DNA of 64,000 bases from Strigops habroptila. Its lineage: Eukaryota > Chordata > Aves > Psittaciformes > Psittacidae. Positions 304 to 45,216 of this stretch are shown here, in pieces. Position 1 is the stretch's first letter. Every line of letters starts with the position of its first letter. The stretch is taken from the NCBI RefSeq assembly GCF_004027225.2, contig NC_044284.2, forward strand, positions 41,278,420 to 41,342,419, read 5' to 3'. The translations under genes were made by a program, and so were the position numbers. The notes under the pieces were generated by a model. It ran no database searches, was not told the DNA's origin, and saw nothing but the letters and a program-made list of their open reading frames with translations.

Positions 304-459
304 CGGGCCCCAATCGGACGCAGTCCAGCGGCGGTCGCAGGGTGGGCCTGTGCACGCCTTCTCGCTGCTGGGCTTCTGGGACTCATCACAGAGGGGTGCT
401 TCGACTGAGCAGCGCACCTCCCGCTTCGTCATCCCCTGCGTGCCACACCGGGCTGAACA
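304..459 (-). CDS. ADAMTSL2-like exon 14: fourth TSP1 repeat, last exon in window
   Basis: 156 nt, GCAG acceptor and GTGAGT donor, phase 0. It begins with [17 protein letters not shown], has [17 protein letters not shown] and ends at a splice donor, so the gene continues. CSARC has Arg where O-fucosylation needs Ser or Thr, so this repeat is probably not fucosylated. Confidence 0.94.
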
Positions 460-3400
460 CTGCAATGGCCATACACAGTCAGCCCTAGGGCTCAGAAGCA
501 GAGACTAAGGGGAATGAGCAAAGGTGAGGGAGGCAGCTATGCCTCCTCCTGTTTCCTTCTGCTGCACTAGGAGAGAGGGGAAAGGCACCAACAGGGACAG
601 GAAAAGGTGGGTCCATCTCTATCTCTGCTGCTTATTTAATTTGGGTCCTAGAGTTCCAGCGCTCCAAGATGCTGATGCCTGGAGTGCTGCTGTTCAAAGT
701 CACTAGTCCACTGGCCCACTCCCAAGCAGACTGTGGAGAGTTAATCAAAAGAATTTTAATTTTAGCTTCTCTGTGTCTCCATGCTACTGTTTCCCCATTT
801 GCTCTTAGAATCATAGAATCGTTTAGATCCTCTGGAAGAGGGAGGTGAAGCCTCTTGCTTGCAGGGCTTTAATTTGGTCCACATCCTGCTTGAAAAGTGA
901 CCTTAGAAAAAATGTTTTGCAATGGCTTTTGTCTGCTGAGCAGCGCCAGAACAGGGTAGCCATGCACAAAGGCAGTCCTTGCTTCCCCAGGAAGCCAAGG
1001 GCTTCCTTAGCACCCAACATCAACCAGCCACCTCCCTCCAGGCCCCAGCCCAGACCTGGCTGCTTACCTCTGGAAGCAAAGCTCTCCTGCTGCTTACCTA
1101 CCTCAGACCACTCGGAGAGCTCCCACTGGGGCCCACAGGCCTTGTTCTTGCAGGCTTTCCTCTCCATGGGCCTGGCCAGCCCAGCTGACTCACAGAGGTC
1201 ATCATAAACAGAGCTGTCAAAGCCTGGAGCCAACATCTTCCAGCAGCGCACAGTGCGGTACTGATAGCCCTCACCACAGGTTCTGGAGCACTCGCTCCAC
1301 CGGCTGGTCTCCCACCTCCACGAGCAGTCCCCAAGAAAGCAAGCACAAAGGAAAACCCAGGTAAGGGAGACAAGGGACACGGGGTGGCTGGGGAGTGCCT
1401 GCACATCTGGGACTCCCTCACCCAGTAGCTGCTGCTATGAACCTGCCCATCACACATATGTCTGTGTTAAGGCAATGTTGGTCTTGAACGTCAACTTGCC
1501 CTTAGCAGGCAATTTAGTCAGCAAATTCCTTCCCTCTTTTTGCTTACAAAGCGATACCTACTAATTTATGAGTATCTTCCAGCCCAGAAATGGCTGTATA
1601 CTTTGAGCGTGTTGTCCCTGTGGACAGCTGATATCACGTTGACTCACCTAGGCTGGCAATCTCTCCCTGTGCAAAATTCGTGAGTAGGTTCTGGTCGGGT
1701 TAGGGCATCACAGTATGTTTCATCCACTTCCACTCCATCATACCGGACACACATCGCATAAGAGGCGCTGATACCTGCTGGGCAATCAAGACATTTTCTT
1801 GGTTACACTCCATCAGATTAAAAGCCTCCACTCACCATGATTAAATCACTGCATCTGAAATGTTACCTGTCATTTTAAAAAATACCAGTATTCTCTCCAT
1901 CGACAGCCAAAAAGGACTTCACATGATCAGTCACTTGAAGCCAAACCTACCTGAAGTGCATGTGGAGCTGCAGGGGGCATAAGCTGAGACTTTCCACCTA
2001 TACATGTCAGCCAAGCTGATGTCATCATGGCCCACGGGGCTCACATCAAACTCATTGCTGTGGAAAAAGGAGGCAGTATGAGCTAAAAATTAAGAATTGC
2101 CACAAAAACAATATAGTGAAATTCCTCCTCACTGTCTCTGAAGATGGGAAGAAACCTAGTGTTTCTGCTGTCCACCTCCCCCACCTTGGGAAGATGGACC
2201 ACTGATGAACAGAATGTAAAGCCTTGATCCACCTCCTGAATTCAACTAGCAAGGCAGTGGATCAACATCACTCTGAGAGGAGGCAACATTCACAGTGAGT
2301 CTTGTGTATATTATGGTCTTTTGACCACACGGGTGCCCTCAGCCTCAGTTCATACTATCACCTTGAGAGGTATAACACTAGGTTGGAAAGTGGAGCTCAA
2401 GCATGGTCCTTCTTAGTTATCATATAATTTGGTGTGGAGAATTCACATGTGGCTTGCCAGAAATGTTTAGAAGTTGGTCCTCATTCTCCTGCCAAGAATG
2501 GGGAGTCATATTTACTGATGTTACACAAGCTTCAAGAAGCTTATGTGCTCAGAGGAATGGAACAGAAGGGGCATGATGTGGTGGTAAACATGTGACATGC
2601 TATAGACTCATAGCCTACTTTACAACCACGTCAGTGTTGGCTTCACAGGTCCTTCAGCGTGCATTGAAATGGATCCCTTAGAGGCAGGGGACCTGAAATA
2701 AGTTCTGGGAGCAATATGTCAGGCCAGTTGTGACAATCAGTCTTTGGAGGACACACCACTGGTCAAGCATCTACAGCAGCTGCCATGGACAGACACTGGT
2801 GAATGGGGACATCAAGGACAGCAGTGGGACTACCAGAGGATTGGCGTGGCCTTCCCTCCCCAGCTAACTGTGCTTTTGTTTTGCTCAGGAAATCAAGTGC
2901 CACCTTTCAGTGCCAGGGGCTTGCAGAGGCTTTGCTTGGCTGATGTCCATGGTTGGGCTGGCACCTAGCAGAGGGCTCTCCACAGATGCCATCATGCTGT
3001 AGTTGGCTGCTTTCCCCTGACTCCCAGCAAATGCATCCAACTTCAAGTCTTCAAGTGAGTTCTTACGGGCCGGCAGTTTGTGGAGGCCCTGTGGCCACCG
3101 AGCAGCTGTCTCGGCCCATAGTCCTGCTGTGGAGTTCCTTGGGGCCAGCCTGGCTGCCAGGTGCTGCAACTCCCTACAGAAGGCAGTATTGTGCGGGTCT
3201 CGGTGACACAGGCGCCTGAAGAGACGAAGCCTGGAGGATGCTATGTGGCTGTTCTCTGGGAGCTCGGATCTCCTCATGCTGTAGGGTACAGCTGTGCTGA
3301 TAGAAATCTGATTGAACCTAAGAGCTGGAAAAAAAATACAGGCATGCTTGAGCTATATTGAATGGCTTATACTTCAGCATGTGGTATTTAGCAAGACAAA

Positions 3401-6400
3401 AAACATTCATTATTTGGCCTCAAAATCACAAATTGCCACCAGGGTGCACCAACAGGCCTTAACTGCCCTGAGCAGCTTCACATGCACTCTGCCCATTGCT
3501 CAGGAGCTCCACTTTAGCTCAGGCCTGGGCCTTCATTTCTGGTGTTCTTTCTTCCTAAACTGTTGTTTGGCTTTCCTAGATTGACCTCAGATTGGACTTC
3601 TCCCCTTATTTTTCACCTGATGATCCCTGGACTGTTGCTAGGATCTGCTCCTGTCCCTCCCTGCTTGCCAAGCTCAGGTGCTGTGGGACTGCTCTGCCTG
3701 AGAGGGCACTGACTGATCTCTGCTGTGGTCACCCTCTCCCAGCTCCCCTTCCCTAACAGAGCTATTAGCCCTTGCTGCTCCCTGACAGTCTCCACCCCAC
3801 TATCAAGCGTCATTCCCTCCTGTCCACCCTGATGGTAAAGCCACCTTAGATTTCAAGAAGACCAGTGTGGGATGTCCCCTTCCAATGAACAAATTGGGAG
3901 AGAAGGAAAGACAAAGTAACCAACCCAACTCTCTTTCTCCACCAACTGCTGCTGCTTCCTCCTTCTCTTCCTCTCCTGCTGTGTTTGTGTGATAGATCTG
4001 TCTTATCTGGAAGTCATACTTCTTCTCTTCACCTTGTTCCCAGCCCCAGTCTCGAGCCTGACTGGTGGAGTTGGTCTGGAAGAAGTGTGGGTGACCAAAG
4101 CCTAAATCTTCATGCCCTTCTCTTAGAGGAAGCTGTTCACTGGTGTAATCTGGTGACAGGGTGAGCCATGTCGCATTGAAGTCCTGGGCAGCTCTGGAGT
4201 TGGCTGGAATGGGATAGTTCTGGTTGGTCTCTGGTAGGTGGTAGAGAGGTCTGTCTATATCAGGGGCTGCAGTTTGGAGAGGTGGTATCCGTGGTACAGT
4301 GTAGTCGTAAGTTATGTGTGGCATTTTCCCATTAAAGTTGTAGTACTGGAGGAAATGGAGAAAGAAAACAAAACTCTCTTTATTTTAAGAGCATGTATTT
4401 CCCAGAGAACTCCTCTAGCTACATCCATCTTGGGAAGGATGTTAAAAGAAAGTAGTATCCTCATAAATCCAAGAGAAGCACACACAGCCAAAACAATATA
4501 TGGCTTCCTCAGCCACCTATGAGTTTGGCTTGGGAACCAGGTTAATATTCCCTTTGTCTGAGGGAGGCTCACAATTTTGGTATAGACAAGACAGGAAAGC
4601 TTAAAACCAGTTCCTCACATACCATGGCATTCAGAGACTGGTTAGTGGGTCCATGAGCTATGATATACTCCAGTCCATCTGAGTTCAGGCTCAAGGGCCG
4701 CCGGTACTTGAAGACTGTGCCAGCTACCCTGAAGTTCTGAGGGTTGTCAATGGCAGAGTTGCCATTGAAGAAGAAATGTCCAGATTCATCTGCAAGTGCT
4801 TCAAAGAGAGAAAATGAGTAAATGTGATATTCCATGCAGAACACTGGGGCTGCACTGGTACTGAAGAGAGCAAACAGCTCAAGATCAAGAAAAATGCAAT
4901 AGAAAAAGAACCACAAGTCTTCCAGCATCCATATTCCACATCAGGTCAGCAATGTTCAATGCCTGGTGCTTTCATTTCCCTCTCCAACAAGAGCACAAAT
5001 GTCTTCACAACAGGGACAGTCCACAGGGAGCTCAGTTTCCAAATGTCCCTCCTGCCACTGGTTGCTGGAGATGTAACTTTGATTTATGGATAGATGAAGT
5101 GCCCCTACGCTACCCTGGAGGAAATGCTCACAGATAGCTCTCTCACAGGACCAATGGGAGCACACAGAGCCCTCCTCCCACCTCCCAGGCAGCTGAACTG
5201 GGATCTCCACATCCATCTGGTTTCTCTGCTTACCTAGGATGTTTTCTGTTTTCCTGCGCTCAATGATAAGGATGTCTGTGGCACCGGCTGGAATGTTGGT
5301 GATGAACACATAACCTGAGGAACAGAATAAAGTGTTAGGAAACCTTGAGGACAAAATAAAAAGGTCTGTGTAGGAAACACAGCTCGTGGGACAAGTGTCT
5401 ATGTCAGAGGACAACACTGCCCTTCAGGGGCAGGATGCTAAAGACATGAATGCATGTTGCGCAAGTCTGTGAGCTTTAATCCCAACTTCCCTCTGAAGTT
5501 CCATTACAAATCACTGTTACTGGTCTCTAAGGCTCAGCCTGAGCTCTGCTGGGTCTGGAGTCAGGAAGGAGCTGCACAAGTATGACAGTCTGGCTTTAAT
5601 GTGTGGATGAACATGCTCTCACACTCTTTCTGGCAAGAGCAGAGAAAAAGCCTACTAGTGATCAGGGCTGATGCTGAAGAGAGGATGGAAAAAAACATAA
5701 GTCCCCTCAGCAACTGACTCAACAGAATTTGTCTCAGGAGTAGCATAAAAATTGACCTTTAAAGGGAGAGGAAATAAGGCGGCTCTTAAAAGTTGTGTGG
5801 TTTGGCAGCTTGTTTTTCCTGCTAGAAATACAGGTCTTGTCCATTCTGTAAGATTTTATGAGGACTGGAATTGGAGGCCAAATCCGTACCTGTACTGCTG
5901 GAGGGGTTAGCGCCATTAACCCTGCTCTGGAAAGGGGCCTGAATGCTTTCCTAGTCTGTAGGGAGTGATGCAGGCTAGTGAAACATCAACAGTGTGAAAT
6001 GTTCCAAAACACTCTCAAACACCAGTTAATTAACTACCAATGAGCATACCACAGTCTTTTCCTTCTGTGGGTGGAAGAATGGGCCAGGAGGTTGCAAGAG
6101 ATGAATCGCAGCCCAGTTTCAGGGGGACTTCTCCTCAGCTGTGCCAGCCATAGGACTGGTTAAAGCAGGAGAATTGCAGGCTGAAACAAACACTGTGACC
6201 CTCATCCTAAGAGCTTAAGTTTCAAATGAATACGTAGCACAAATGAAAGAAGATCTCTTCACATTATCTCAGGTGGGCAAGATGCCAAAATCAATAGGAA
6301 CAAATAGATCCCCAGCTGCTTCCTATTGTAAAGAGATGAAGGGAAACCCTACCAACCTAATATATAGCACATCAAACCCATCTCCTCTGGTGATTAAGTG

Positions 6401-9400
6401 AAAAGGACAAAATATAGGCATTTAAGCAGGCATGGCACTCTTCAGCTCTTCCATCAAGCAGCTGGGAAACTCCTACCCTCATCCAAGCCAGTCACCCTTC
6501 ATGCCCGGTGGTGCTAAAAAGTAGCAGGTGAAGTCTCCGGACTGTGGTAGTAGGGAGTACCTATCTGTGAGACTGCCTTTCGGAAGCTGCCCGAGACACG
6601 GTGGCAAGTGCTGCCGTCCCCTCCACACACCCTGCATCTGTCCATTGTCCGGGGTGAGTACAGGCTCCCATCGCACCCAACTGGCTGCAAAGAATAAAAC
6701 GAGAGGGTTTCTTGGGGTCAGCATATCTCCACAGGTCAGGGTCTTTTCAAGGAAATGCTACCATGCTCTTTTGGTGAGGTTGTGGGGGTGGGTGATGTAG
6801 GTTAGCTTGGAGTGGAGTAATGAATCCCACAGCAGCAGAAATTCACCCAGGCATGCGCTTAACACACTCCTGATTTCTATACTAATTCCTCCCAGAGCCT
6901 CACCTCACATTTCCCATTGATGCAGACCCCTTGATAGGTCCTGTCCTTGCAGGAGGTACCATCCTGTGCTTGGACCATCAGCTGCCTCTCTCCACTCTGG
7001 GTGGTGCATTGGAGGTCACACGGCTTATTGGAGATACTGGTGTAGTCATCTGAAGGGACAGAGGCAGAAAGTCACCAGGCAGATCAAGGTACTCAGAGAC
7101 GGGCAGCGAGAAAGGGGACTTTCCTCTTACTCATACTGATGTCAGCTTGGATGTTCTTGCTGTTTGAGATGAGACCCCAAGTCTACGGATTTTGTAGTAT
7201 TAAAGTGGGCATGGTATGGGACTGCAGCTGGGAACCATGCCTAGCAGAAATACTTCTTGCTGGCAAGCCCTTTTCCTTGTCATATCCTCTCCCCTTTGCA
7301 ATGCCCTGTGCCAAACATGGGACTCTGCATCAGCAGGTCCCAGGCCACACGTAAATACAAAAGAGCAAGCAAGACCTGTAAGAGGGGTACTGACTGTCTG
7401 GGGCTGTGGTCAGCTACACCCCATTCAGCTCAGAAACTGAAGCCAGAGGTGCAGCTATGTGCCCCTGGCAGCTAATGGAAAAACAGGTGGGTCCAGAAAG
7501 AGGGTAATATCTGTGGTGAGCTCAATCTGGGCCTCAAGGCACAAATGGCAACCCATGTGAAGCAATCTGTCCCACCTGTGCAGGAAATGGGTGGGCATCC
7601 TGTTCAGAGCAACCCACCACCAACCCGGTACAAAGCATGCTGGGTGACAGAGGCAGCCAAAATTGTAGAAGGCACAAAGAGCGTGAACACCCACTCTGCC
7701 AAGATGACTGCTGGTTAGCCAAGACAGCTCAGAGAAGCCTGTATCCTGTCTGCCCACCAGTGCTTGCTGATGTAGGATCCAAAACAGGAGCAATGTGGTG
7801 AGAGAGGAGGCCTGGCTGGGTGGAGCAGTTCTGTGAAAAGACAGGGAACGATTTCTCCAAAGCAGAGAGCATAGGGAAGCACTTCCAGACCAGCCAGGAG
7901 CATCCATCCCTTTTCCCCTGGGACCTTCCCCTTCTCCTGTGCCTGAGAAGATCCTGTGGGTGTTTTGTCTCCCTTGATCCTTTGAGTGAAGCTGTGAAAA
8001 CCCACCTGGATAGAGGGGCATCCAGTGGTAGTAACGCTTCCCAAAGGCTTTGGCATTGAAACTGGAGCACTGCTGCTGTTTGAAGCTTGCTGTGTTGGCT
8101 GGGCAGGGCTATGGAGGGAATAAATGTGATCAAAAGCTCCCTATGTCACAGCCATGGTTGTGACAGCTGCTTGTCCCTGTTGCATCCCTGGAGGATGAAA
8201 ATGCCCTATCCACCCTGGAAGGAAACAGTGATGGACTGTGAGGTGCCATAATACAGGCAGAAAGGCCAGGCCTCTGTTGCCAAGGGCCCTTCAGACAGCT
8301 CTGTTTAACAGTCCTGCAAAAATTACTTCCAGAAAAAAAAACAAACCATACTGGAAAATCTTTATGCATCCCCCCATCTCACAACAAATACGTTTTTATA
8401 TCCTTTTCCCCCACCTCTCAGTCCCAGAGAGTAGATAGAGCCCACCTCCCACATCTTCAAAGGCACACTGTCACCCACCCCAGGAGTGGATCACACCTCT
8501 TGTCTGCACTCCTTTGATGGACCAGTCACACTCTGAGTGCTGCTACTCTTGCAGTTCTCCGAATTGCACATTCCCCAGTGAGGACCAGTCACTACTGGAA
8601 GTTGTTCTTACCTGCTGCTGGCACAGTTGGTAATGCTTGGCTTGACCAACACATATGGTACTGTTTGTTGCCTGGGGTATCTGTAGCCTGCAAACCAGAA
8701 AGAAAATGAGCTGGAGGTCTGTGAAGTACTGAGGTAGTGATGAGGTAGTGATAACTGAGGATGACAGAGAAGTCAGGCCTGACTTAAGGGGGAGAAGCAA
8801 GGCAGGTATTTTATCAGAGGAAAGCTTTCTGGATCTAGACTAGCCAACATCTCTGAAGCACATTTTCTGTGCTTTTAGGTGAACTGTGATTTTAGACTAC
8901 TCTCATTTTGGGACAGGTTGAGCAGACGGGGAACAACTCCAGTATCACCACCTCTGTGTCTCTTGACCTCTGAGCTCCAAAAGGGTTGATGTGACAAAAG
9001 GACAACAGACTCTGATGATGAATCACTCCCACAGAAGCACACAGGATTTGCAGTGACCAGGGAAGCTGGTCTCAGGATTCACTGTGCAGAAGGCAGAGAC
9101 AGAACCTCTCATGGGGACTGGCCACGTTAAAAGATTAGCAGATGATGGAGCAAAACCACAGGAATTTCTCAACACTTCAGCTCTGGCCAGCAAGTGTTAT
9201 CCAGGGGACACCGGAGTCCTTGACTGATGCAAAGGCAAAAAAATTCTTGAAAGCTGGGAAGATGTATGGAGAATGGCCGAGACCACAGATAAAGGCAGTG
9301 TGGTGTGTGTGAACAGCAGTAGCAGACAATGCGTTAACAGTACTGGGAACTTAGGGTGCACTGTGTAATGAAGACCCTATAGGCATACTCAGGCTGGACT

Positions 9401-12400
9401 GGCTGGAGGCACTGCAGCTGTCCCTCCAGAACAATGCTTTACGTGATGTAGGCAAAGCCTAAATTTACACCAACCAGCTTGAAAACTGCCATCCTTTCCA
9501 GCTGAAGTAGAGGCTGCCTACAGACTCAGAAATCATTTTGTGGGCATACCTGACTCACACTTAAGCCATTCGTCTTAAAGCTGAAGAAACCTTTTGGCTG
9601 TCTTTTATGTTGAGGGGTGGGGGTTTTTTGTTTGTTTGTTTTAATCTGACTCCATCCCTAGAGTAAAATGCCACAGCAAAGCCCTCCCCAATTGTGGAGT
9701 CAAGGATAGAGCACATGCCAAATGGACAGAAAAATCTTTCTTTTGTCAGCAGGCAAAGGGCAAACAGGCTGCTCTGGCTGTCGGGGGTATGGGACAGCCC
9801 CAGGCTCTTTCCCACCCTTTGTTTCTCACTCTTCTCCCATGATGGCCAGTGTGCTGGGGACAAGCAATGGCAGAGACACTGGCAAGCCCAGTTAGCAGAG
9901 AGGCTACATCCAGATGGAAGGTACTGCAGCACATCTGGACCTCACCATGCTTCCACACAGCCCACATAAAATAAGTCTTCTGCTGAAGGAAGGAGAGCAG
10001 GCTGGGGACCCTAGCTTGAGCTTCCTCCACTCAGGAGTGCATTCATGCAGAAGGGAAAGGGGCAGAGTGTGGGGTGGGCAGCCCCTGTGAGCTTGCTGTG
10101 CTGCTCCTCATTAACATCACAGGAACCTGGAGCAGCAGGTTAGTGAGGTGCTGCAGGAATAGGAGAGCTTGGTGGCAAGGTGACTCAGAGGGTACAGCAG
10201 GAGTTTGGGCAGCTGAAGTTCCCCAGTACTCCCCACTCCCACAAACCCAGTCCAACTGATACCAGGACTGTAGCAGCTGTAGGGGACAAATGGAGATGCT
10301 GTCATGTGTCAGCCAGATATATCACAGAGGGAAATAAACTTGCAAGCTCCACAGGGAATAAAGAGGGGAAATTGCTGAGATGTGGCTGAGCTAACTGCTG
10401 TCAGGAGTAAATCAAGTCCCCATAAGGCGTCTGGGAATATGTATCCACATTCTTAGCACAAGAACTGCCTACAAATCAGGGTTAGATTGGTCAGACCAAC
10501 CACAGTAAGCAAAGGGAAGTGGAATAGAGCTAGCTTTCTTCAGCCCACAACCCTATCAAATCTCCCACAGACTCCGAGAGGGGATCAACCCCTTGCTCTC
10601 TATCAGATGAACCAGGCTGAGTGGGTGACACATTTCGAGGGCCTGTGGCCTGCCCCACTGCAGCATGCTTCTCCCTTGCCAGCCCTCCCCACCACTGCCT
10701 GCTCACCACCTACCCCACAGGCTACAGCCACCTTCCTTTCCAAGAGACCACCGATGAAGATGGAACAGCTGACCCCACAAACTCAGGAGGTTCAGCCCCA
10801 AAACATAGGTCAGGGGCATCCCATTTCCCTCTGCCACTTCAGACCTGGCCAAGGGTTCGGGCTGGGACACAACTCACCTCTGTTGCAAGCAGTGCCTCTC
10901 CCGGGACATCACACCTCCTCCGCAGGACCGGGAGCAGGTGGACCAGGAGCTCCACTCTCCCCACCATTTGGTGACTTCTTCATCCCAGAGGCCAGCTCCA
11001 TCTGCTGCCTCACTACTGTCCTGACAGAAACAGAGCATGGTTAGGTGGAGAACCTGGCTCCTCACCACCCCAAACAGAGAAGGGCCTTGCAAAGGCAGAT
11101 CCCCCAGGGACCATGTCACCTGGATGCCTTCTAAATGGGCAGCACTGGGACAACCATGGCAGGATCAAAGTCCCTGTGAGCCACACCAGGCTCATGCATC
11201 TCAAAATTCAAGTTTCCCTCCAAGATTGAGTTATGGGAAGGAGAATGCCTCTGGGATCTCATGCCATGCTGTAGAGAAGGACTGTTGGGCTGGTTATATG
11301 TGATAGTAATGCCAGCTGCAGCCTGACTCCACAGCATCACTCCCAGCCTGGATCAGACAGAACAGGAGATCACAGCTCATGCTGCCTGCCTGGGTCTGAT
11401 GCAAGGTCAGGAGAGAAGAGGAAGAGCTACGGTGCTTGGCCATGCAGATGCCTGCCTGCAGGGAAGGTGGGGGTACACATCTATCACTCACTGGAGCTGC
11501 ATTTCAACAAATAAACTTCTCTGTGATTCAATCAGTTCAGACCCAAGCTCCTCTCTCTCCAGCCTTCACAAGTCATTTTCAAGAGTGCTTCAGAACCTGA
11601 GTCTCCTGCAATTGCTGTTGTTCCCTTTCCCCATGCACCCCACTATTCTCAGAGGATTACTCTGTCTCCCAGCATGCCTTGCTGGGGCTGAGCCTTTAAC
11701 TTTGGCAAACCTGAGCAGTCCTGGCCCTGACATGGTCATTGCAGCAGGCTGCTATTGGCTGTGCCTTCACAATTCCCAGCAGGTAAGAGATTCTGTGCTT
11801 TAGCTTTAGGTTTGGTTTTTTTCCTTAGAATATTTTCCTGTTTAGTGTCTGTCTGATGGCCTAAAAGCTCCCAAGGACTTTGGCAAACTAGCCTGTGCAG
11901 GAACTAATTTGCTGTTTATTGAAATACAGCTGCGAGTAGTGTTAAAGGCAGCAATGAGTTTAACACAGGATAGTGACTAGAAGGGATTTATCCAGTTGAA
12001 AATACCAACAATGTCTGAGTATTAGTAGAAGAAAATAAATAATATGTGTGTGTGAAGTCTGCTATGTTGAAGCTCAGGGAAGTTGTATCAGTGCTACTAT
12101 TGGCAAAACATACCAGTCTGTGGCAGTGGCCAATAGTCCTGTTTCAAAGAACCAGTCTGCAAAGCGTAACGGATGGATGTGAAAGAAAACTCAGCAGGGT
12201 TTGCTCATCGCTAAACGCGCTCTGTATGCTATTTTGGTTGAGTTTCTCTTGGCTTTATGCACTTCCATAGTGTAACGCAGCCAAAGTGTTCTTCATCTTG
12301 AAGTGTAATTCCTGCCTGAAAACTTGTTGTTTTTACAGCATCTGCCAACAGGACATCCTCTGGGCAGAGGAGATGCAGCTGGTTTATGCAAATGTTTTTA

Positions 12401-15400
12401 AGTTGTAACTTAGAGTGGCTGAAATATGCATTCTTCTGGGTGATAACCAGAAATGTTGAAAGTAACCTTCTCTGCGGCAGAAAAGCACCATAACACCCAA
12501 TGCTTTACTCTCTAGTAATTACAATAGTTAATTTTGAAAACAATATAGCACAACTCTTTGCTGTACTTAGATGTTCCGGCTGGAGTTGACTTGCCTGACA
12601 GGGACCAAATGCTGTTGTCAGCAGCTGAGTTGCTCAAGAGAAAAATGAAACTTACAGGAAACAGACATGTTTTCAAAAATACCTTTTCCCTCTTCTTCCA
12701 AATGATCATCTCAATCTATTTCCTATGAGAATTTTTGTCTGACTGTATATTATCAGACTGTAAATGGTAATGCTGACTATGTTGCTTCCACACTTACAAA
12801 TGAAAGAAACCAAAGGTCTCTTATTTTTGTCTAAAATCTTTCCCTGACCTTTTCTATGCTTCTTTGTGATAAGCATCTCAAGGCCTGTAGAGAAAGAGCT
12901 CTTCGCAACTGTTGGGATGGAGAATGCCAATGATTTACCTGGTGTCTGTGCAGAGAGCTCAGCACAATACAGATTCTCCCACAGTGGGGGTAATAATCAA
13001 AGCTTGTGTCTTACCACTTCACTAAATAGTAACAGGAGGCACACGGACTGTCTGGGGAGAAGGCATGTGGACAAAAAGCTGCAATACTTACACAGCTTTT
13101 CCCCAGGTGGCAATAAAAATCTGTGTCACTCTAACCAGCAAGATAGTCCTGCTCCACAGATCTTACAATCCAAATAGGTGAGACAAGGCAGAAAGGAAAC
13201 AGAAGAAGGAAAGTTAGATGGGCTGTTCTACTGACCTATCCCTAGATATGAAAAAGACTTTATATGTGGAGTGGTGTATTTTTTCTGGGTTACTGCTCTT
13301 GGGTATTTTGCTTGGATGCAAGGAGACTTCGCATGTTTGGGGAAGATCAGCATCTCTGCCTTTGTGTGCCTCTTTCTTATGGTTAGAGTAAGATATGTTT
13401 CTCTCCACACTGTGATTTTCAGGAACGACAGGAGCCCAAATGAAGATTTATTGAAGGATGCTAGGCAAAACCTTTTTTAAAAAAATAAAATGTGTTTCCC
13501 TATATCCATAAGCCCTGTTCCTGTTTCCTCATTGCACTGGAGGAATCAATCACTTTTCAAGCAGATTGATTTGGCTCTCAGGTTTTCCACGACCAAGTTC
13601 CCTTGCCGGTCTTTGCCTAGGAATGTTTATTTTCTTGTGTAAGTAAGGACAATGCTGAGCTGTCCCCTTGACCAGTAAGACTTACAGCATGACTGCACCA
13701 GAGTCCTAGGCCTGCTGACGTACAGGGGGAACTCCAGGTACTCAGAGCTGGAACAGCTGGTTCCAATCTCTGCTGAATTTATTATACTGTCAGAAATAAA
13801 TTTGCACTAACCGTGACACACAAATGGTTCTTGTTTTTCATTAGTGATACTTGCATTTTCCAAATTTTCAGATAATCAATTAAAGACTGTGGGAAAGACT
13901 CCAGATTAGATTAGCTCCTAGTTTTAGTTTCCCAAGCTTCTCTGCAAATCCCAAGAGTTACCTTCTGGCCAAGTGAATTCCTCTCCCCCACCCCCTCCTT
14001 GTAGGAGAAATCAAAGGGGCTTTAAAACAACTCTTCTGCATTCTCCTGGTTGTAGGAGATGCTGGAACTGCTCTAATTTGCACTCTGCAAATCACAGAAA
14101 TGGAGCAGGCTAGAAACAATGGAGCAGGAGATGCACAAAGGTCCAGTCTTTATAAGGCTGGTTCTGTCTGGGCTTGGATGAGGGCTCTGCCTAAAGGAGG
14201 TGAGAGGGTCAGGTGTGATTCCTTAGGAGATGAGGAATATAAGCCTAGAATTTACATCTGTAGAAAAGACAGACTGTATTCCAGTTCAGCCAGGTGCTCT
14301 CCGCAAGAATTTCCCCTCAGGCATTTGTGGCTTGGCACCCGGTGATTATATAGCTGCAGTTCTTCCTCTCTGAGGTTAACCAAGTTATTTTTGTGCTTCT
14401 GCACCTACACGGGAGGCCACGCAATTGAGTGGGTGAGAGTTGCCCCCCTGTCCCCTTGTTGGGGGAAACACATCTTTGAACCCCAGCTTGCAGAGAACTT
14501 TCTGACAACAAAATATCTGTCTCCAGATTTGCCAATATCAATGGCAGAAACATCATTCTCTCAGCCAGCACCACTGAAAGCTTTTTCTGTCTAACCGAAG
14601 ACCCAGCAGCTGCTTCCCCTCTCCTCCCTGCCAAACAAAGGCTGACACAAACAAAATGCTTCAGGCCTGCAAAGAAGGGTGGGCTTGGGCTGACATCCTA
14701 TGAGATTCCCAGGCGGTCTTTCTGAAGAGCTGAAAGGGATAAAATAAATTCTCCACTGACTCCCTGTCATGCTCTGGATCAGCTCTAAGCTATGCTGGGT
14801 TTCCCAGAAACCTGGGAAAAACTGCAATTACTGTGTCAGTGGCCCAGTCTCCTGTGTTGCTTATTGTTGTGCCTAATCTTGAGATTCGTTAGAGCCTGGG
14901 TCCTGGAAAAATGCTGGCTGGGAAGAGAGACCACAAACATGCCTGTCTAGTTCACTTAACAGAAGAGCTTGCGGGGGAAGCTCTCCCACTGCAGCCTGGC
15001 ATGCCTTAAGGGCTGGCCCACCCCTGAGGGGCACAGTAGCTGTTATGAACTGTTCTGCTCAGCCTTGTCTGAGCTTATAAGACTACTAGACTACTAGTAC
15101 TAGTACTGAGCTATAAGAGTGCTAGACTACTACCAGCTGAAAATGAAATAAATTCTTCACAGACTTCTTCTGAGGCTATTAACTGCATGTCCTCTACCAA
15201 AAATTTCCACAATCCCTTTACTTAAGGGCTTCTCTCTACAGCAAACCACACACACTACTTACTGAAATACTAAGTGGCTTCAGATGTCTTAATGCCTGGA
15301 ATGGATGTCAGATTATTATCTGAAAATGAATGACCATGTTCAACTCCCCTTGTTTGAGTTCCCCATGTCATTCTCTGACTAAAGCTGTGGTGAAAGACTC

Positions 15401-17762
15401 TACCACAGCCCTGAAAAAAACCAACAATAGCATTTGCAATTATGCCTTAATGTTTTACAAAAGAACTGGTGTTTGTGTAAAGCTGTTTCTAATCCTGTCA
15501 TGGTTTTATCCTATTTGGGTAGGCTAAATAGTTTTATGAGAGATTCACTGTTGGAAGCAGACACAAAACCCAATTTTCCTTAGGAAAGTTGAAACAAGAT
15601 ATTTGAAGTATCTTCTATGAGGGGAAGGTATCCTGAGGTAAAATAAGCAATGCAGAATAATTTTTAGGGGATCAGGAAGAACGTTAATCTGGGAAAAGAT
15701 GGTAGCTTGCTAAAGATGTGATATTGCAGCAGATAAGTAACAGAAATCTGGACACATAATGAGGTGCAGATGAGAAGCAAATTAGAAAACCAGTGAACAG
15801 AAGCCAGTGGAGAACTATCAAGTACTGTTCGTAACCCTGTTGTGACAGAAATTTCACAGGTAAATGCTGCACATCATTACAAAATACTTGAGCTAAGTCA
15901 GTTAGGTCCTTCATTTCAAGTGGGATAACGCACTTATTCTGGGGCAAGCTGGTAAAAAAGAAGGAAATCTGTGAAGGAGAAGAAGGGAATAACAGACGGT
16001 GTGTATGAGACGCATCTCATTGTCAGTTTTTTCAGAGGCACTGAATGCAATTAGCCCCATGTAGGAAGGAATTTGCTTACCCCATCTATGGATTTAGGCT
16101 TTCTATGACACTTTTTGTACAATCGTCTTGTATAAAGAAAACAGGGCAGCAAGAGGAACTGTAGGTTAATCCCCTAATGACTATTTTGTGCACTGTCTTG
16201 CACTGGAGATACCAATCAATACTAGGAACGCTTGGCATCTGCCAAACTAACTTCCACCATGCAGTCCTTGATCAGAGTGCTCTGCGGGATTCTCCTGGAG
16301 TAAGGGAGTCCTCAGGGCGGACCTGGCAACAGTACTGGTGTGTGTTTGTCTTGCGGAGAGCTCAGCAGCCCCAGATGCCCTCAGCTTAGCTACTGTACAA
16401 ACACAGCTGCTGGGCGCAGGGAGAATCACCAGCAGCCAAGGCTTTTGTACACATGATGATGGAGGAGTCCATCCAGGTCACTCTTAAATGAAGCACTTCA
16501 CATCTGTTTAACTTGACCCAGCTTGCTCTGCCTGAAGTTTCTCTCTGACTTAGCCCTATAGTTAAGGGGTAAACAGAATGGGCAGTGGATGTGTGTGAAG
16601 GTAAAAACAAAGTGGAAATGAGACACTTGAGCTGTAAAATTAAGACAACCCCAGACCAGGAGATGCTTCTGCTTTTCAAACCTCAGTTATCTGCAGTAAA
16701 GTTGGTGTCTGGTCTTCTCTGCGTTTAAAATAGCTCATGTGAGACTGCTTCACCCCAATGGAGCCTGCGTTGTGGGGGTGGGAAACCCTCTTTCCCCTTC
16801 TGCAGAGCAGAATCCCTTTAGCAGCAAAGAAATCCGGCCGGGTTCCCCTTGGGGAAACAGGAGCGCTGAGCCAGAATGCACGCAGTGACCCGTGAAGACA
16901 GGGGCACAGCCGGTGCCCCGTGAAGCTGTGATTTCTGCCTCCCCACCACAGTAACAGGGGCAGTTCTCCCAGGCTGGGCCTCGGGGAGGAGAAGGGGACT
17001 AGCAAAGGGGTTCTGGTGTGTTGCTGTGGAAAAAAGTGCTGTGAGGATGGCCAGGCTGAGGAAGTCCTTTATGGACAAGAGCAGAGATGAGGGGAGCGTG
17101 GGGTTTCAATGCCCGGACATGCACCCCAGTTAGCAGAGAAAGCTGCTGCCTGAACCCATGCCTGGGGTGGCAGGGGAGACAGGGAGGATGAAAGTCTGTT
17201 TTCAGCCCTAAACTGGAGCCAGCCCGCTGCTAGAGATAAGCATGGGGGGGAGCCTCGGGCAAACTCCCCACCAGGGACAGACCCTGCTCCCCCATGGTCC
17301 TCCTGGTGACGCTGGGAAGCTTCCTCAGGCATCCTTACCCCCCGACGGCCTTTTATAGTGCCAGGCCGCTGGGCAATGAGCAAAGCGTCTGGTCCTTGGG
17401 GTAAATTTGGGGGAGACACAACAAAACCACCTCCTCAAGCACTTCAAGGCTGAGGGAGGGCAGCGGGGGAACCTTCAAGTCCAGGCTATTCCTTGCAGGA
17501 ACCAGGAACCTGCGGGGAAGGGCGACGACCCGCCGCTCCCGTAAGGCGACCGCCCGCTCCCTGCCCCGCGCAGGCCCCGCCAGCTCGGAGCGCCCCTCCT
17601 GGCCCCGACCCCGCGGCGGCTCCCTGATGGGAGGGAAGGAAGGAGGGGGCGAAGGGAGGCTCCGCCGCCGCGGGCCCACCCGCCGCCGCTTACCTTAGCA
17701 CCGAGGGGGGCGGCGGCGGCGCTGAGAAGGAGGAGGAGGAGGCGGCGGGGAGCGGCGGCCAT
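304..17762 (-). CDS. ADAMTSL2-like secreted ADAMTS-like glycoprotein (3' part outside window)
   Basis: Fourteen coding exons on the minus strand join without a frame break: 17694-17762, 10878-11020, 8612-8687, 8006-8108, 6904-7049, 6561-6684, 5234-5314, 4623-4789, 3943-4345, 2904-3324, 1951-2057, 1648-1774, 1102-1315 and 304-459. Domain order is signal peptide (residues 1-23), TSP1 repeat (about 33-75), cysteine-rich module (about 76-220), spacer (about 221-315), long low-complexity linker (about 316-590), then three TSP1 repeats (about 590-779). There is no metalloprotease or disintegrin domain, which defines ADAMTS-like proteins. Of the family members I know, ADAMTSL2 fits best ([54 protein letters not shown]). 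ADAMTSL2 is an extracellular-matrix protein linked to microfibrils and TGF-beta control; that role is inferred here. Human ADAMTSL2 has further TSP1 repeats and a PLAC domain, which should lie left of position 1. Introns not listed separately hold nothing I recognise. THSD4 is the main alternative and fits less well. Confidence 0.9.
800..905 (-). repeat. Possible decayed CR1 3' end fragment
   Basis: The stretch begins AGAATCATAGAATCGTTTAG, the reverse complement of the terminal ATTCTATGATTCT motif of avian CR1 LINEs. Similarity fades after about 20 bases, so it is either very old or a chance tail. Confidence 0.35.
1102..1315 (-). CDS. ADAMTSL2-like exon 13: third TSP1 repeat
   Basis: 214 nt, GGAG acceptor and GTAGGT donor, ending in phase 0 after WSE. 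It encodes [40 protein letters not shown] and [17 protein letters not shown] is an O-fucosylation consensus. Confidence 0.95.
1648..1774 (-). CDS. ADAMTSL2-like exon 12: second TSP1 repeat, continued
   Basis: 127 nt, GCAG acceptor and GTGAGT donor, ending in phase 2. It encodes [20 protein letters not shown], then [10 protein letters not shown] and CQPR. This block is nearly ADAMTSL2-specific and is the best evidence for the paralogue assignment. Confidence 0.94.
1951..2057 (-). CDS. ADAMTSL2-like exon 11: start of second TSP1 repeat
   Basis: 107 nt, CACAG acceptor and GTAGGT donor. It encodes [12 protein letters not shown], then [20 protein letters not shown]. Human ADAMTSL2 has a close ADMYRWK motif at the same place, where the linker meets the C-terminal TSP1 array. 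It ends in phase 1. Confidence 0.92.
2904..3324 (-). CDS. ADAMTSL2-like exon 10: linker with a basic two-cysteine segment
   Basis: 421 nt, starting after a strong polypyrimidine tract and CCAG and ending at GAAAG before GTGGCA in phase 2. The next exon's first base then makes Ser before NEFDVSPVG. It encodes [20 protein letters not shown], then [11 protein letters not shown], then a low-complexity tail with two sequons. I do not recognise the RLRLFRRLC...FCREL segment as a named domain. Confidence 0.78.
3943..4345 (-). CDS. ADAMTSL2-like exon 9: end of spacer and acidic linker
   Basis: It starts after TCCAG with [18 protein letters not shown], the last spacer strands. It then becomes a Pro/Asn/Glu-rich linker with two N-glycosylation sequons (NAT, NST) and an acidic [10 protein letters not shown] tail. 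The 3' boundary is uncertain because no donor is strong. GTGGAG (exon end 3943) and GTTGGT (exon end 3925) both leave phase 1, which the next exon needs. Confidence 0.8.
4623..4789 (-). CDS. ADAMTSL2-like exon 8: spacer, second part
   Basis: 167 nt, CAG acceptor and GTATGT donor, ending in phase 0. It encodes [26 protein letters not shown] and the GPTNQSLN sequon, all typical spacer beta-strand motifs. Confidence 0.94.
5234..5314 (-). CDS. ADAMTSL2-like exon 7: spacer, first part
   Basis: 81 nt, CAG acceptor and GTAAGC donor, phase 1 at both ends. It encodes [19 protein letters not shown], the IPAGA-x-x-I-x-I-x-E motif that opens the ADAMTS spacer. Confidence 0.94.
   Translation of the reverse strand, partial: VMCSSPTFQPVPQTSLSLSAGKQKTS
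6561..6684 (-). CDS. ADAMTSL2-like exon 6: end of cysteine-rich module
   Basis: 124 nt, CAG acceptor and GTACTC donor. It encodes [20 protein letters not shown] and GGDGSTC, the GCDG...C-x-V-C-GGDGS-x-C signature of the family. It ends in phase 1. Confidence 0.94.
6904..7049 (-). CDS. ADAMTSL2-like exon 5: cysteine-rich module
   Basis: 146 nt, CAG acceptor and GTGAGG donor. It encodes KPCDLQCTT, then [13 protein letters not shown] and GVCINGKCE, a highly recognisable ADAMTS/ADAMTS-like core. It ends in phase 0. Confidence 0.95.
8006..8108 (-). CDS. ADAMTSL2-like exon 4: start of cysteine-rich module
   Basis: 103 nt, TAG acceptor and GTGGGT donor. It encodes [20 protein letters not shown] and then HWMPLYP, the usual start of the ADAMTS-type cysteine-rich module. 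It ends in phase 1, splitting the first Asp codon of [10 protein letters not shown]. Confidence 0.9.
8612..8687 (-). CDS. ADAMTSL2-like exon 3: end of first TSP1 repeat
   Basis: 76 nt, CAG acceptor and GTAAGA donor. The first base completes the Arg codon of HCLQQR. It encodes an N-glycosylation sequon (NST) and YQLCQQQ, which closes the first TSP1 repeat. It ends in phase 0. Confidence 0.88.
8688..10877 (-). other. Intron 2 of the ADAMTSL2-like gene
   Basis: 2.2 kb between exons 3 and 2. It has a GT-rich patch near 9605-9645. No coding exon, RNA gene or clear transposable element was recognised. Confidence 0.75.
10878..11020 (-). CDS. ADAMTSL2-like exon 2: first TSP1 repeat
   Basis: The 143-nt exon has a CAG acceptor and a GTGAGT donor and ends in phase 2. 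It carries [19 protein letters not shown]. The W-x-x-W tryptophans are typical C-mannosylation sites, and CSRSC fits the C-x-x-S/T-C O-fucosylation consensus. In secreted ADAMTS-like proteins both modifications help folding and export. Confidence 0.93.
11021..17693 (-). other. Intron 1 of the ADAMTSL2-like gene
   Basis: 6.7 kb between the signal-peptide exon and the first TSP1 exon, both ends in phase 0. I found only AT-rich unique sequence and a small CTAGTA-rich direct repeat near 15,079-15,135. Intragenic enhancers may be present, but motif reading alone cannot show them. Confidence 0.7.
15079..15135. repeat. Degenerate GACTACTA / ACTAGT tandem repeat
   Basis: GACTACTAGACTACTAGTAC is followed by ACTAGTACTGAGC and then another TAGACTACTACC copy. 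It is a short, imperfect array inside intron 1 with no evident function. Confidence 0.5.
17694..17762 (-). CDS. ADAMTSL2-like exon 1: signal peptide
   Basis: It encodes [20 protein letters not shown] followed by GAK, a typical signal peptide with two arginines, a leucine run and an alanine-rich end. The ATG has G at -3 and G at +4. The exon is 69 nt and ends at a phase-0 GTAAGC donor, which matches the phase-0 acceptor of the next exon 6.7 kb away. Confidence 0.88.

Positions 17763-17767: not shown

Positions 17768-17831
<64 letters not shown>
17768..17831 (-). repeat. (CAG)21 microsatellite in the 5' UTR
   Basis: On the minus strand there are 21 uninterrupted CAG triplets, ending six bases before the ATG of the ADAMTSL2-like gene. 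They are preceded by about four CGG-type triplets. The CAG frame is in phase with the signal peptide (Gln run, Arg, Gly, Met). Read upstream, that frame has no ATG nearby; the first candidate is a GTG at 17876. The run is therefore probably untranslated. Confidence 0.95.
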
Positions 17832-17833
<2 letters not shown>

Positions 17834-41900: not shown

Positions 41901-44900
41901 GCGACCAGTTGTGTGTCTGGTGAAGAACTTTGGAAAATCACTTGAAACTCTGAAAGCTCAAAGGTATCTGCAGATGTTAGGCAAGACAAATAATTTGCTT
42001 GGCCCTCATGCAAATTGGGTTGTAAATAAGGCAAGATCCTTCAATAGGACAGGATCTGGTTTTAGACTGTTTATTGAAATATTTTTTCCTTGAGGGTATG
42101 AACCACAGCTGTCTCCTAAATATGAAACCTCGTCTCTGCAAATAGGGCTACATTGTGAAATCTTACAGAATTGAGATGACTCTGATCTGTTAACTATTAG
42201 AAGACCTATATGTTTAGCCGGTTATAAGCTCTATGTCTGTACCCTACCAGGGTATGGCATTTAAATTACAGAGTAGTGTAGCTCATTAAGCCAGTTAAGC
42301 TCAGGCTTAAACCAGAGCTGCTTTTACCTCTTTCTGCAATTACATTTATATAGAAACAAGGTTATAGAATTTATTTTAGTACTCTTGAAGCAATTACTGC
42401 AGGGTGTGTGTGTGTTCAATTTATTCTCAATAGTAATGACAGTATCCTGATTTGGTTATATATTATTAAAGAGCCTTCAGCTTTGAACCAGAAATTCTTG
42501 TGTCTCTTTTAATTAACTGAGTAAATTCAGGCAACCTGCTGACCAATAATTGCATATATTCATACTGGTCTCTTGGGAAAGTTGTTCATAACACTTTTAT
42601 GGATAATGTCTCGTGTACTTTGCTGTCTGAGCCCATTTAAATGAATGGACCAAAAGTATATTTTGAAGTTGAAAGCTTGCATTTTGCTTTAAAACCACAA
42701 TTTATCCCAAGAATCTGACTACTGATAAAGCAGGCCTCTGACCCAAGCTCGATGGAGCTGGGGGGGGAGGGGATATGAGACTATGCCTTTAGCATACTGC
42801 TTTGCTCTTGCTACTTATATCTTGTGTTATGTTGGTTTTCCAAATATGTATTAATTGACCTTCCATTTTTCTGTCCCTTAAATTCTTGAGCAAAATCAGG
42901 AAACTTGGGACATGAGATCCTTATCAAGAAAATGACGGGTTATTAAACCTCTGCCATTTTGTCATCTTGTACTTCAAATGCCCACATCTTTATTTGCATA
43001 ACTTTTCAAGAGTTAAAAATCTTTGGGGGTGACTTGTGATAGGTTGGGTAGTTGTGCTTTTTACGTAAGTTTGCAAAGATGGCTTAAGAACTGACATTTG
43101 GCAAATAGCATAGATGGAGAGTTGGTCTGCCAGTTGAATGGGACTTCTCAGGCTAATAATAGCGGTGGACATGTAATTTTTCTTGTACAAGACTAGTCTT
43201 GCTTAAGAACAGGAAGGTGAATGATGCAGAAGAGAACAAAAAGCCCCGTACTCAATACAGCCCTACCCGGGATGAGGTCACAGCCTTGCCTTTGCTCCTA
43301 GTTACTCGGACTGCATTCGCTTCAACAAAGTGCTATGCAAGGGTGCTTTGTTAACCCTCCTGTAAGCCTCGTGGAATTTTGTATGTAAAAGTGTAACTAA
43401 GAACAGCTTCTTGTTGAAAATAATGCAGTTTAATGATTTCAACTCCATGCTGGATTTCCCACTGGAATATTTGTTATAACTGTTGTTTTAGTATTTTTCT
43501 CATGTTCCTTTCTTAATCTCTTAACAGGCAGAAGTAGATTTCGAGATCAGTCCAGTATAGGGAAGCATTCACTGCCTTCAGCCAAAAGTAAGACTTTTGT
43601 TTCACTTCTCTTTCATGCTTGTGTTACATTTAACCATTTTCATGCCTGTCTAAGTACTTTAATTCCTGGTAGCTGATGTTAAACTGAGGGTCTTTGCCAG
43701 AGCCGATGACTTGCTTGCTAGAGCATGTGTTTTCAGCATGAAGGAAAGGTGTTGTATAATAGGTAACACTTCCACCTGAATTTAAGGTCTTCCATCTGTA
43801 GTGTTTACAAGATTTGCTGCAAGATTAAGACTGAGGTAGGCCTAGTGATGTTCTTATTTAACAGTTGTTGTGTTGCTGTCCTGATGGAAGTTAGGATATA
43901 AAAAAGTAGCGTAAAGTATACACTTCTTTTTTGTTTCCAGGGGAGGCTGGTATACTTCATCACTAAGTGAAAGAGGAGAAATAACATAGAAACAATTCTG
44001 GTGTTGCCAGGTTTTGTATAGGGCTTTTTCTGCAGAGCCTAAACATAGAACTGTTTTAAGCTCTTAGTTTGGATTTGATTAAATAGAATGAAGTATTGAT
44101 AAACTTTCAGAAGAGCTCCTTTTTCAGAAGAATGTCCGATTTCTTAGTCTATCTGGAAATGTGTTAATAAAAATGTCCCTTTTTTAATGCTGTCACTTCA
44201 CTAAGTTGCTAAAGAAGTTCCTTTTTTTTTTGTTTTTTTTTGGGTTTTTTTAAGTAGAACATCGTTATGCTCTTCAACTACTGTACCAGTGGCTTGAGAG
44301 TGGAATGATAAGTTCACGGAATTCTACTGTTCCCTCTTACTTCCTTCTCACTTGTTGACTTTTGTTTCCTTTGAAAACATTGTTTTCTTCCTGTTTGCTC
44401 CTCCTTTCTGCAGGTGATGGTGAATCTGGAAGTGGATTTCACAAGAGCTGGACTTTGTTACTGGTTCTGTTAATTTGTGTCCCATTGCTTTATGTCCTAT
44501 GGAGTGGAATGCCAAGTCTTCTAGATACAACTTTGTCAAGTAGAGATACTCAAATTCTGCAAGCATTTCGGGCCCAGATGAATAAACTAAAAAATACTTA
44601 CCAAAGTCAGGACCCCAGCCTGTGGAAAAGGACCCATGTGTTCCTTGAGAAACATCTTAATGCTTCCCATCTGCATTTGGAGCCAGCCATCTTACTGTTC
44701 ACAGCTGGCCAAGAAGCTGAGAAAGCACTGAGATGCCTAAGTAATGAGATTGCCAATGCTTTTGCCTTCTCCCAGAATGCTACTACAATCAAAATTAATG
44801 GGGCAGACAAAGCCATATTGGATAGTGACATTGTCAAGCTGGAGGTAGATAAAGAGCTCAGCTCTGGCTTCAGTGAAGGTAAGAAGGTAGCAGTGGTGCA

Positions 44901-45216
44901 TCGTTTTGAGTTACTGCCTGCAGGCTCCACCTTAATCTTTTACAAGTACTGTGACCATGAAAATGCAGCATTTAAGGATGTGGCTCTTCTGCTGACAGTT
45001 CTCCTGGATGAGCAGTCACTGAGAAAGAGCCTCACCTTGCAAGAAGTTGAGGAGAAAGTCCGGGATTTCCTCTGGGCAAAGTTTACCAGTTCGGATGTTC
45101 CTAGGTCTTACAATAGCATGGACACGGATAAGCTGAGTGGACTTTGGAGCCGTATATCTCATCTTGTGTTGCCTGTTTGGCCTGAAAAAGGCCTTCCTGT
45201 GGAGGGGTGCGCATAG
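35350..45216 (+). CDS. TOR1AIP1: TOR1AIP1 (LAP1), inner-nuclear-membrane torsin activator
   Basis: Six coding exons: 35350-35752, 36041-36109, 39864-39983, 41342-41398, 43528-43587 and 44414-45216. They total 1,512 nt and 503 residues. All junctions are phase 1. Residues 1-248 are the nucleoplasmic tail (basic, Arg- and Ala-rich at first, then short acidic/basic exons). A membrane helix follows at about 249-268 ([18 protein letters not shown]). Residues 269-503 form the perinuclear-space domain. LAP1 binds lamins and emerin on the nuclear side and activates torsinA in the lumen. The arginine finger is Arg483 in [14 protein letters not shown] (Arg563 in human), and the YCDHE and C-terminal cysteines are present. 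The start at 35,350 is chosen because [10 protein letters not shown] and [10 protein letters not shown] match the human N-terminus (VTPRAPIRE, RREVRFSDEPP). It is shorter than human LAP1B (583 aa), mainly in the nucleoplasmic tail. Confidence 0.96.
36041..36109 (+). CDS. TOR1AIP1: TOR1AIP1 exon 2
   Basis: 69 nt, TTTCAG acceptor and GTAGGT donor, phase 1 at both ends. It encodes [20 protein letters not shown]. No domain, but frame and splice sites fit the chain. Confidence 0.8.
36110..39863 (+). other. TOR1AIP1 intron 2
   Basis: 3.8 kb of AT-rich sequence. A near-palindromic TTAACTACATTAACTTAGTT stretch lies near 39,128. No exon or RNA gene was recognised. Confidence 0.65.
39864..39983 (+). 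CDS. TOR1AIP1: TOR1AIP1 exon 3
   Basis: 120 nt, GACAG acceptor and GTAACA donor, phase 1 at both ends. It encodes [20 protein letters not shown] and PNLYTPLK. It is part of the nucleoplasmic tail. Confidence 0.82.
41342..41398 (+). CDS. TOR1AIP1: TOR1AIP1 exon 4
   Basis: 57 nt, TTTTCAG acceptor and a perfect GTAAGT donor, phase 1 at both ends. It encodes [19 protein letters not shown], a short charged segment. Confidence 0.8.
43528..43587 (+). CDS. TOR1AIP1: TOR1AIP1 exon 5
   Basis: 60 nt, AACAG acceptor and GTAAGA donor, phase 1 at both ends. It encodes [20 protein letters not shown], a basic Ser/Arg segment with likely phosphosites. Confidence 0.8.
44414..45216 (+). CDS. TOR1AIP1: TOR1AIP1 last exon: membrane helix and luminal domain
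   Basis: CTGCAG acceptor, then [14 protein letters not shown], the membrane helix, [40 protein letters not shown] and [17 protein letters not shown]. The TAG stop is at 45214-45216. It parallels the last exon of TOR1AIP2 in phase and content. Confidence 0.97.

Follow-up and report, generated by a model that had tools for sequence, protein, structure and literature searches.

Gene structure and position in the window

The window, meaning the whole stretch of DNA analyzed here, comprises 64,000 nucleotides of the Strigops habroptila genome (G000:C8:41278420-41342419; genome of 1.15 Gb in 89 contigs). At its left end it carries 14 of the 18 exons of a gene of the ADAMTSL2 type (window gene), whose closest relative among the candidates scored in the same genome is a second gene of this type on contig C16 (C16 gene). 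The window gene is encoded on the minus strand, with exons 1–14 extending from window position 17762 down to 304, and for this part the coordinates given in a first-pass annotation of the DNA (304..17762) were exact. The joined coding sequence of 2,958 bases corresponds to 985 codons and a stop codon, is open throughout, and is interrupted by 17 introns that all have GT-AG borders. Exon joins were set by splice signals, reading frame, and similarity, without a transcript, and are least certain for exons 9 and 10. In window positions, the exons are as follows.

Exon 1, 17694..17762, minus strand: start codon ATG at 17762, then a hydrophobic leader (leader recognized by eye)
Exon 2, 10878..11020, minus strand: start of the first thrombospondin type 1 repeat (TSR1)
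Exon 3, 8612..8687, minus strand: remainder of TSR1 (TSR borders set by eye)
Exon 4, 8006..8108, minus strand: start of the cysteine-rich module
Exon 5, 6904..7049, minus strand: cysteine-rich module, with the residues matching human A165 and D167
Exon 6, 6561..6684, minus strand: end of the cysteine-rich module, with the residue matching R221
Exon 7, 5234..5314, minus strand: spacer
Exon 8, 4623..4798, minus strand: spacer
Exon 9, 3943..4345, minus strand: last part of the spacer, then the front half of the variable insert
Exon 10, 2904..3324, minus strand: rear half of the variable insert, including two cysteines absent from the C16 gene
Exon 11, 1951..2057, minus strand: start of TSR2 (TSR number by eye)
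Exon 12, 1648..1774, minus strand: remainder of TSR2 (TSR number by eye)
Exon 13, 1102..1315, minus strand: TSR3, 79% identical to the C16 gene over 75 residues
Exon 14, 304..459, minus strand: TSR4
Exons 15–18, window -88 to -2938 (outside the window, G000:C8:41278331-41275481), minus strand: TSR5–7, PLAC, and stop codon

A pseudogene was also considered and is ruled out by the frame, which is open across 18 exons, and by the presence of all splice signals. Just upstream of the start codon, at window positions 17768-17832, GCT is repeated perfectly for 21.7 units (read as CAG in the sense direction), and the frame in which this repeat sits remains open further upstream. Length variation of this repeat could have an effect on the translation of the window gene.

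Domain organization and predicted function

Searches against Pfam matched the window protein to TSP1_ADAMTS in six stretches (192.1 bits), to TSP_1, and to the spacer (84.8 bits; cut-off 23.6), CR_3 (31.0; cut-off 21), and PLAC (40.1; cut-off 26.4) families. No metalloprotease or disintegrin family was matched by Pfam anywhere in the 985 residues, and the leader exon is followed directly by TSR1. When the exons are read individually seven TSRs are counted, compared with the six stretches delimited by Pfam. The resulting layout of TSR1, cysteine-rich module, spacer, long insert, six TSRs, and PLAC is that of ADAMTSL2.

Of the 59 cysteines in the C16 gene, 58 are kept in the window gene, and the residues at positions R61, A165, D167, and R221 of human ADAMTSL2, sites of mutations in geleophysic dysplasia or Musladin-Lueke syndrome, are conserved in both bird copies without exception. 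Four of five further disease positions are also kept in the window gene, and at the fifth R113 is replaced by K. Both proteins contain two WxxW motifs. A relaxed O-fucosylation pattern occurs six times in the window protein, five times in the C16 protein, and six times in the provisional human ADAMTSL2 sequence described below. Because the cysteines, the four human disease or mutation positions named first, and the WxxW and O-fucosylation motifs are retained, the folded parts of the window protein are very probably intact, and it would probably be secreted by the same route as ADAMTSL2. The variable insert encoded by exons 9–10 is only 22% identical between the two genes and has two cysteines of its own in the window gene; of all parts of the protein, a change in function is most likely to lie here.

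Publications are cited here by their PMC identifiers. ADAMTSL2 is described as secreted and enzymatically inactive, with fibrillin-1, fibrillin-2, and LTBP1 as binding partners; when it is lost, microfibrils are disturbed and, in several studies, TGF-beta signalling increased, whereas in one study two disease variants caused no TGF-beta rise (PMC8667168, PMC10850197, PMC10972594). By analogy, the window gene likely encodes a secreted, non-enzymatic regulator of microfibrils or TGF-beta. Its action on microfibrils would be expected to be of the same kind as that of ADAMTSL2, with a change of partner or tissue. A search of solved structures returned 10 distinct sequences, which derive from ADAMTS13, ADAMTS5, and thrombospondin-1.

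A second ADAMTSL2-type gene in the genome

The whole genome was searched in six frames with the window gene, and 46 of 201 first-look candidates were scored; all genome-wide match figures refer to these 46. Of the 48 matches, 17 are the window gene itself; a single gene at C16:261-284 kb accounts for 11, and the other 20 come from different places. Scores reach 132.9 bits in the C16 gene and 56.9 bits outside it, a similarity far above what chance would give. Among the candidates scored, the closest relative of the window gene is thus this C16 gene, which was modelled as follows.

C16 ADAMTSL2, G000:C16:261267-283953: exons 2–18 modelled, 928 residues

All comparisons with the C16 gene take in exons 2–18. 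Over these 17 exons the intron phases of the two genes are the same in every case, and exon lengths are equal in 14, the differing ones being exons 9, 10, and 11. A pattern search among genome contigs gave 25 matches, none of them a relative. About 60 kb before the C16 gene, at G000:C16:195-205 kb, lie TSR exons of an ADAMTS-type gene that fit ADAMTS13. A canine study placed ADAMTS13 and ADAMTSL2 in one haplotype (PMC2941456).

The human reference for the following comparisons was a provisional, unsourced sequence of 951 residues, which we take to represent human ADAMTSL2 in the identity, site-pattern, and tree analyses. It carries four published residues at the right places, namely R61 and A165 (PMC10972594), D167 (PMC13269634), and R221, the site of a dog mutation (PMC2941456). 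Identity to this provisional sequence is 77.7% for the C16 gene (716/921), compared with 48.7% for the window gene (455/935), and the two bird genes share 49.8% of their residues (457/917). Within the conserved domains, 213 sites are shared by the C16 gene and the provisional human sequence to the exclusion of the window gene, 20 by the two bird genes, and 12 by the window gene and human; the difference between the last two numbers is insignificant (p 0.22). The corresponding numbers for the insert, with the same provisional human row, are 81, 20, and 21. A tree of the part from TSR1 to the spacer, rooted on four ADAMTS-type loci of the same genome, placed the window gene outside a group of the C16 gene and provisional human ADAMTSL2 (support 88/79). 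The identities, the site patterns, and the tree thus identify the C16 gene as the orthologue of ADAMTSL2, to which the window gene is an old paralogue.

Two copies of an ADAMTSL2 and FAM163 block

The neighbourhood of the two genes provides a further line of evidence. Next to the window gene, outside the window, the following feature was found.

FAM163 exons on C8, C8:41271069-41272220, plus strand: Pfam FAM163, 224.8 bits; beside the window gene

The window gene and this FAM163 gene are arranged tail to tail, with 3,257 bp from stop to stop. The C16 ADAMTSL2 gene is arranged in the same way with a FAM163 gene of its own (Pfam FAM163, 226.9 bits), at a stop-to-stop distance of 3,233 bp. Compared with likewise provisional versions of the human proteins, the C8 gene is 68.6% identical to FAM163A and 49.3% to FAM163B, and the C16 gene 47.7% to FAM163A and 80.6% to FAM163B. 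By this measure the C8 neighbour is FAM163A and the C16 neighbour FAM163B. The provisional human FAM163B has a length of 166 residues, in agreement with a published description (PMC6168733). The same source shows FAM163A adjoining TOR1AIP1, TOR1AIP2, TDRD5, and NPHS2 in human 1q25.2-25.3 and mouse 1G3.

Human and mouse both possess FAM163A and FAM163B, which sort with the C8 and C16 copies, respectively; the ADAMTSL2+FAM163 block had therefore most likely been doubled by the time birds and mammals diverged. This is the strongest argument for an old block duplication, and it is independent of the ADAMTSL2 tree. Together with the site patterns, and with a tree that agrees, it points to a separation of the two ADAMTSL2-type copies that predates the split of birds and mammals. 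The first-pass annotation had read the window gene as closest to ADAMTSL2 and had proposed a duplicated ADAMTSL2+FAM163 block; its interpretation is partly supported, in that the gene is of the ADAMTSL2 type and not a protease, the same genome has a separate ADAMTSL2, and the block occurs twice with the same tail-to-tail arrangement.

For a wider comparison, the 144 kb surrounding the window gene, with 3,826 open frames, was searched against 140 kb of C16 in six frames at an E value of 1e-4. Thirty-two of the 45 matches connect the two ADAMTSL2-type genes (17 in sense, 15 in antisense or another frame) and four the two FAM163 genes. The remainder consists of five TSR-exon matches to the ADAMTS-type gene with which the C16 stretch begins and which we take for ADAMTS13, two matches of a LINE-like (long interspersed element) frame, and two of a repeat-like stretch. 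Beyond the ADAMTSL2-type and FAM163 genes, no further gene pair common to these 144 and 140 kb was found.

Origin of the window gene

We conclude, with a probability of roughly 0.85, that the window gene is a second ADAMTSL2-type gene that arose when a tail-to-tail ADAMTSL2+FAM163 block was duplicated before birds and mammals parted. That the two loci are old block duplicates is well supported. The copy on the FAM163A side would have been kept in birds and lost in mammals; published family lists make the absence of an orthologue from mammals plausible, and an origin of the ADAMTSL2 pair by whole-genome duplication is plausible as well. The product, expressed as we presume, would be secreted and bound to microfibrils and would act on TGF-beta. 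A more far-reaching scenario is offered tentatively: in early vertebrates, control over microfibrils and TGF-beta might have been divided between two ADAMTSL2 genes, and both might still be used in birds and perhaps in fishes. Loss of the FAM163A-side copy would then have left mammals alone dependent on a single ADAMTSL2 and hence exposed to geleophysic dysplasia whenever that gene is defective.

Several observations weigh against an old block duplicate with conserved function. The two genomic stretches have only one neighbour pair, FAM163, in common. Human ADAMTSL2, FAM163A, and FAM163B entered the analysis as provisional, unsourced sequences, and when the provisional ADAMTSL2 was checked at 13 disease positions, 10 fitted and three (42, 93, and 641), themselves named without a source, did not. 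In the tree, two of the four outgroup rows have no spacer, and a sister relationship of the window gene and the C16 gene is left unrejected (approximately unbiased test, p-AU 0.13). For exon 6 and the TSR5–6 stretch, other loci of the genome gave higher scores (49.7 and 56.9 bits) than did the corresponding single exons of the C16 gene (40.0 and 55.4 bits), owing to the greater length that these other matches cover. Finally, the window protein has 6 N-glycosylation motifs in total vs. 11 in the C16 protein, and these fewer motifs, combined with the very different insert, may indicate other binding partners.

Among the alternatives, the one that survives best concerns the mode of duplication. 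If a short segment with a few genes was copied early in vertebrate history, instead of the whole genome, the identity and function of the window gene would be as described above; such an event agrees with ADAMTSL2+FAM163 being the sole pair common to the two stretches compared. However, 1q25 and 9q33-34 are paralogous regions with many such pairs. ABL1/ABL2, LHX3/LHX4, and QSOX1/QSOX2 are examples. We consider a segmental event rather unlikely.

Alternatively, the window gene could be an ADAMTSL2 copy restricted to birds or sauropsids that evolved rapidly after landing beside FAM163A. Such a history would be compatible with the unrejected sister relationship in the tree, and the excess of 20 over 12 domain sites has the sign that it predicts, but this excess is insignificant and vanishes in the insert (20 vs. 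21). Moreover, a later insertion would have had to hit a matching place in a matching orientation, since the window gene and FAM163A lie tail to tail like ADAMTSL2 and FAM163B and at nearly the same distance. The FAM163 genes sort with provisional human A and B, which dates the FAM163 split before that of birds and mammals, and 213 domain sites join the C16 gene to the provisional human sequence. A lineage-specific copy is therefore improbable. Even less credible is that the window gene belongs with THSD4 (ADAMTSL6) or ADAMTSL4 and merely resembles ADAMTSL2, because, although PLAC is common to all three (PMC8667168) and exon 6 and TSR5–6 have their higher matches elsewhere, 11 exon matches of up to 132.9 bits fall in the one C16 gene, no other scored place comes near it overall (up to 56.9 bits among the 46 candidates, with THSD4 and ADAMTSL4 themselves not located), and the intron phases and most exon lengths are those of the C16 gene. 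The first-pass annotation had itself named a recent bird-only copy and a placement inside THSD4 or ADAMTSL4 as competing readings, and both now appear unlikely. The preferred explanation is still the old duplication of the ADAMTSL2+FAM163 block.

Flanking genes

On the other side of the window gene, the window contains two open frames of the LAP1_C family.

LAP1_C open frame, 26731-25967, minus strand: covers almost the entire domain
LAP1_C open frame, 44362-45213, plus strand: covers almost the entire domain

These frames on opposite strands fit TOR1AIP2 and TOR1AIP1, and which of them is which we assign by gene order. The first-pass annotation had described a TOR1AIP2-TOR1AIP1-CEP350 block, of which the TOR1AIP part is supported by these frames. 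CEP350 was left unconfirmed by the three open frames tried on the right side, two of which matched no family and one an unrelated family below the cut-off. About 32 kb beyond the window gene, G000:C8:41240103-41243036 (minus strand) contains long open frames resembling a LINE reverse transcriptase, which we take to be CR1-like.

Significance and comparison with known ADAMTSL genes

The mechanism of ADAMTSL2, the gene underlying geleophysic dysplasia and Musladin-Lueke syndrome, is a matter of debate. With a second intact ADAMTSL2-type gene, results from bird embryos, and perhaps from fish embryos, can be transferred to mammals only after asking which copy acts. The pair also constitutes a natural comparison, in which the domains are alike whereas the insert is almost wholly changed.

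The window gene is a real gene and has probably already been annotated in chicken. An ADAMTSL2L gene, "ADAMTS like 2-like", is listed for chicken chromosome 8, and a single-nucleotide polymorphism (SNP) in one of its introns (chromosome 8:6,100,203, Galgal5) was associated with survival of avian influenza at P = 2.1e-7, the threshold being 8.5e-7 (PMC11432379). After imputation this signal was gone, as none of the 26 significant SNPs overlapped the earlier ones, and we draw no inference from it (PMC11432379). Name and chromosome agree with the window gene, and ADAMTSL2L is most probably its orthologue. Chicken chromosome 8 is presumably the carrier of the 1q25 genes.

More than one gene of the ADAMTSL2 type has also been attributed to fishes. 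A study from 2007 reported three zebrafish orthologues of human ADAMTSL2 (ADAMTSL2a, b, and c; PMC1867822), and a zebrafish adamtsl7 appears in two other publications (PMC5951578, PMC9950062); one of these genes could be the orthologue of the window gene. For mammals, the family list of a 2024 review gives seven members, ADAMTSL1-6 and papilin, and leaves a second ADAMTSL2 unlisted (PMC10850197). In the legend of a synteny figure that covers human 1q25.2-25.3 and mouse 1G3, four linked genes are named, and no ADAMTSL is among them (PMC6168733). No account of the origin of the bird gene or of the FAM163 block was found in the literature searched, which mostly excluded subscription journals.

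Among known proteins, ADAMTSL2 itself (human 9q34.2; C16 in this genome) is most similar to the window gene product. The two agree in their domains, the absence of a protease, the intron phases of all 17 exons, 58 of 59 cysteines, the four residues at human disease or mutation positions, and the tail-to-tail FAM163 neighbour. They differ in that overall identity is about 50% and that of the insert 22%, and in the two extra cysteines and the lower number of N-glycosylation motifs of the window protein; the window gene, moreover, sits in the TOR1AIP block. THSD4/ADAMTSL6 and ADAMTSL4 are likewise non-enzymatic, fibrillin-binding proteins with a terminal PLAC (PMC8667168, PMC10850197), but one review places them in a clade apart from ADAMTSL2 (PMC8667168). 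The ADAMTS proteases, finally, differ from the window gene by their catalytic domain, which has no Pfam match in the window protein.

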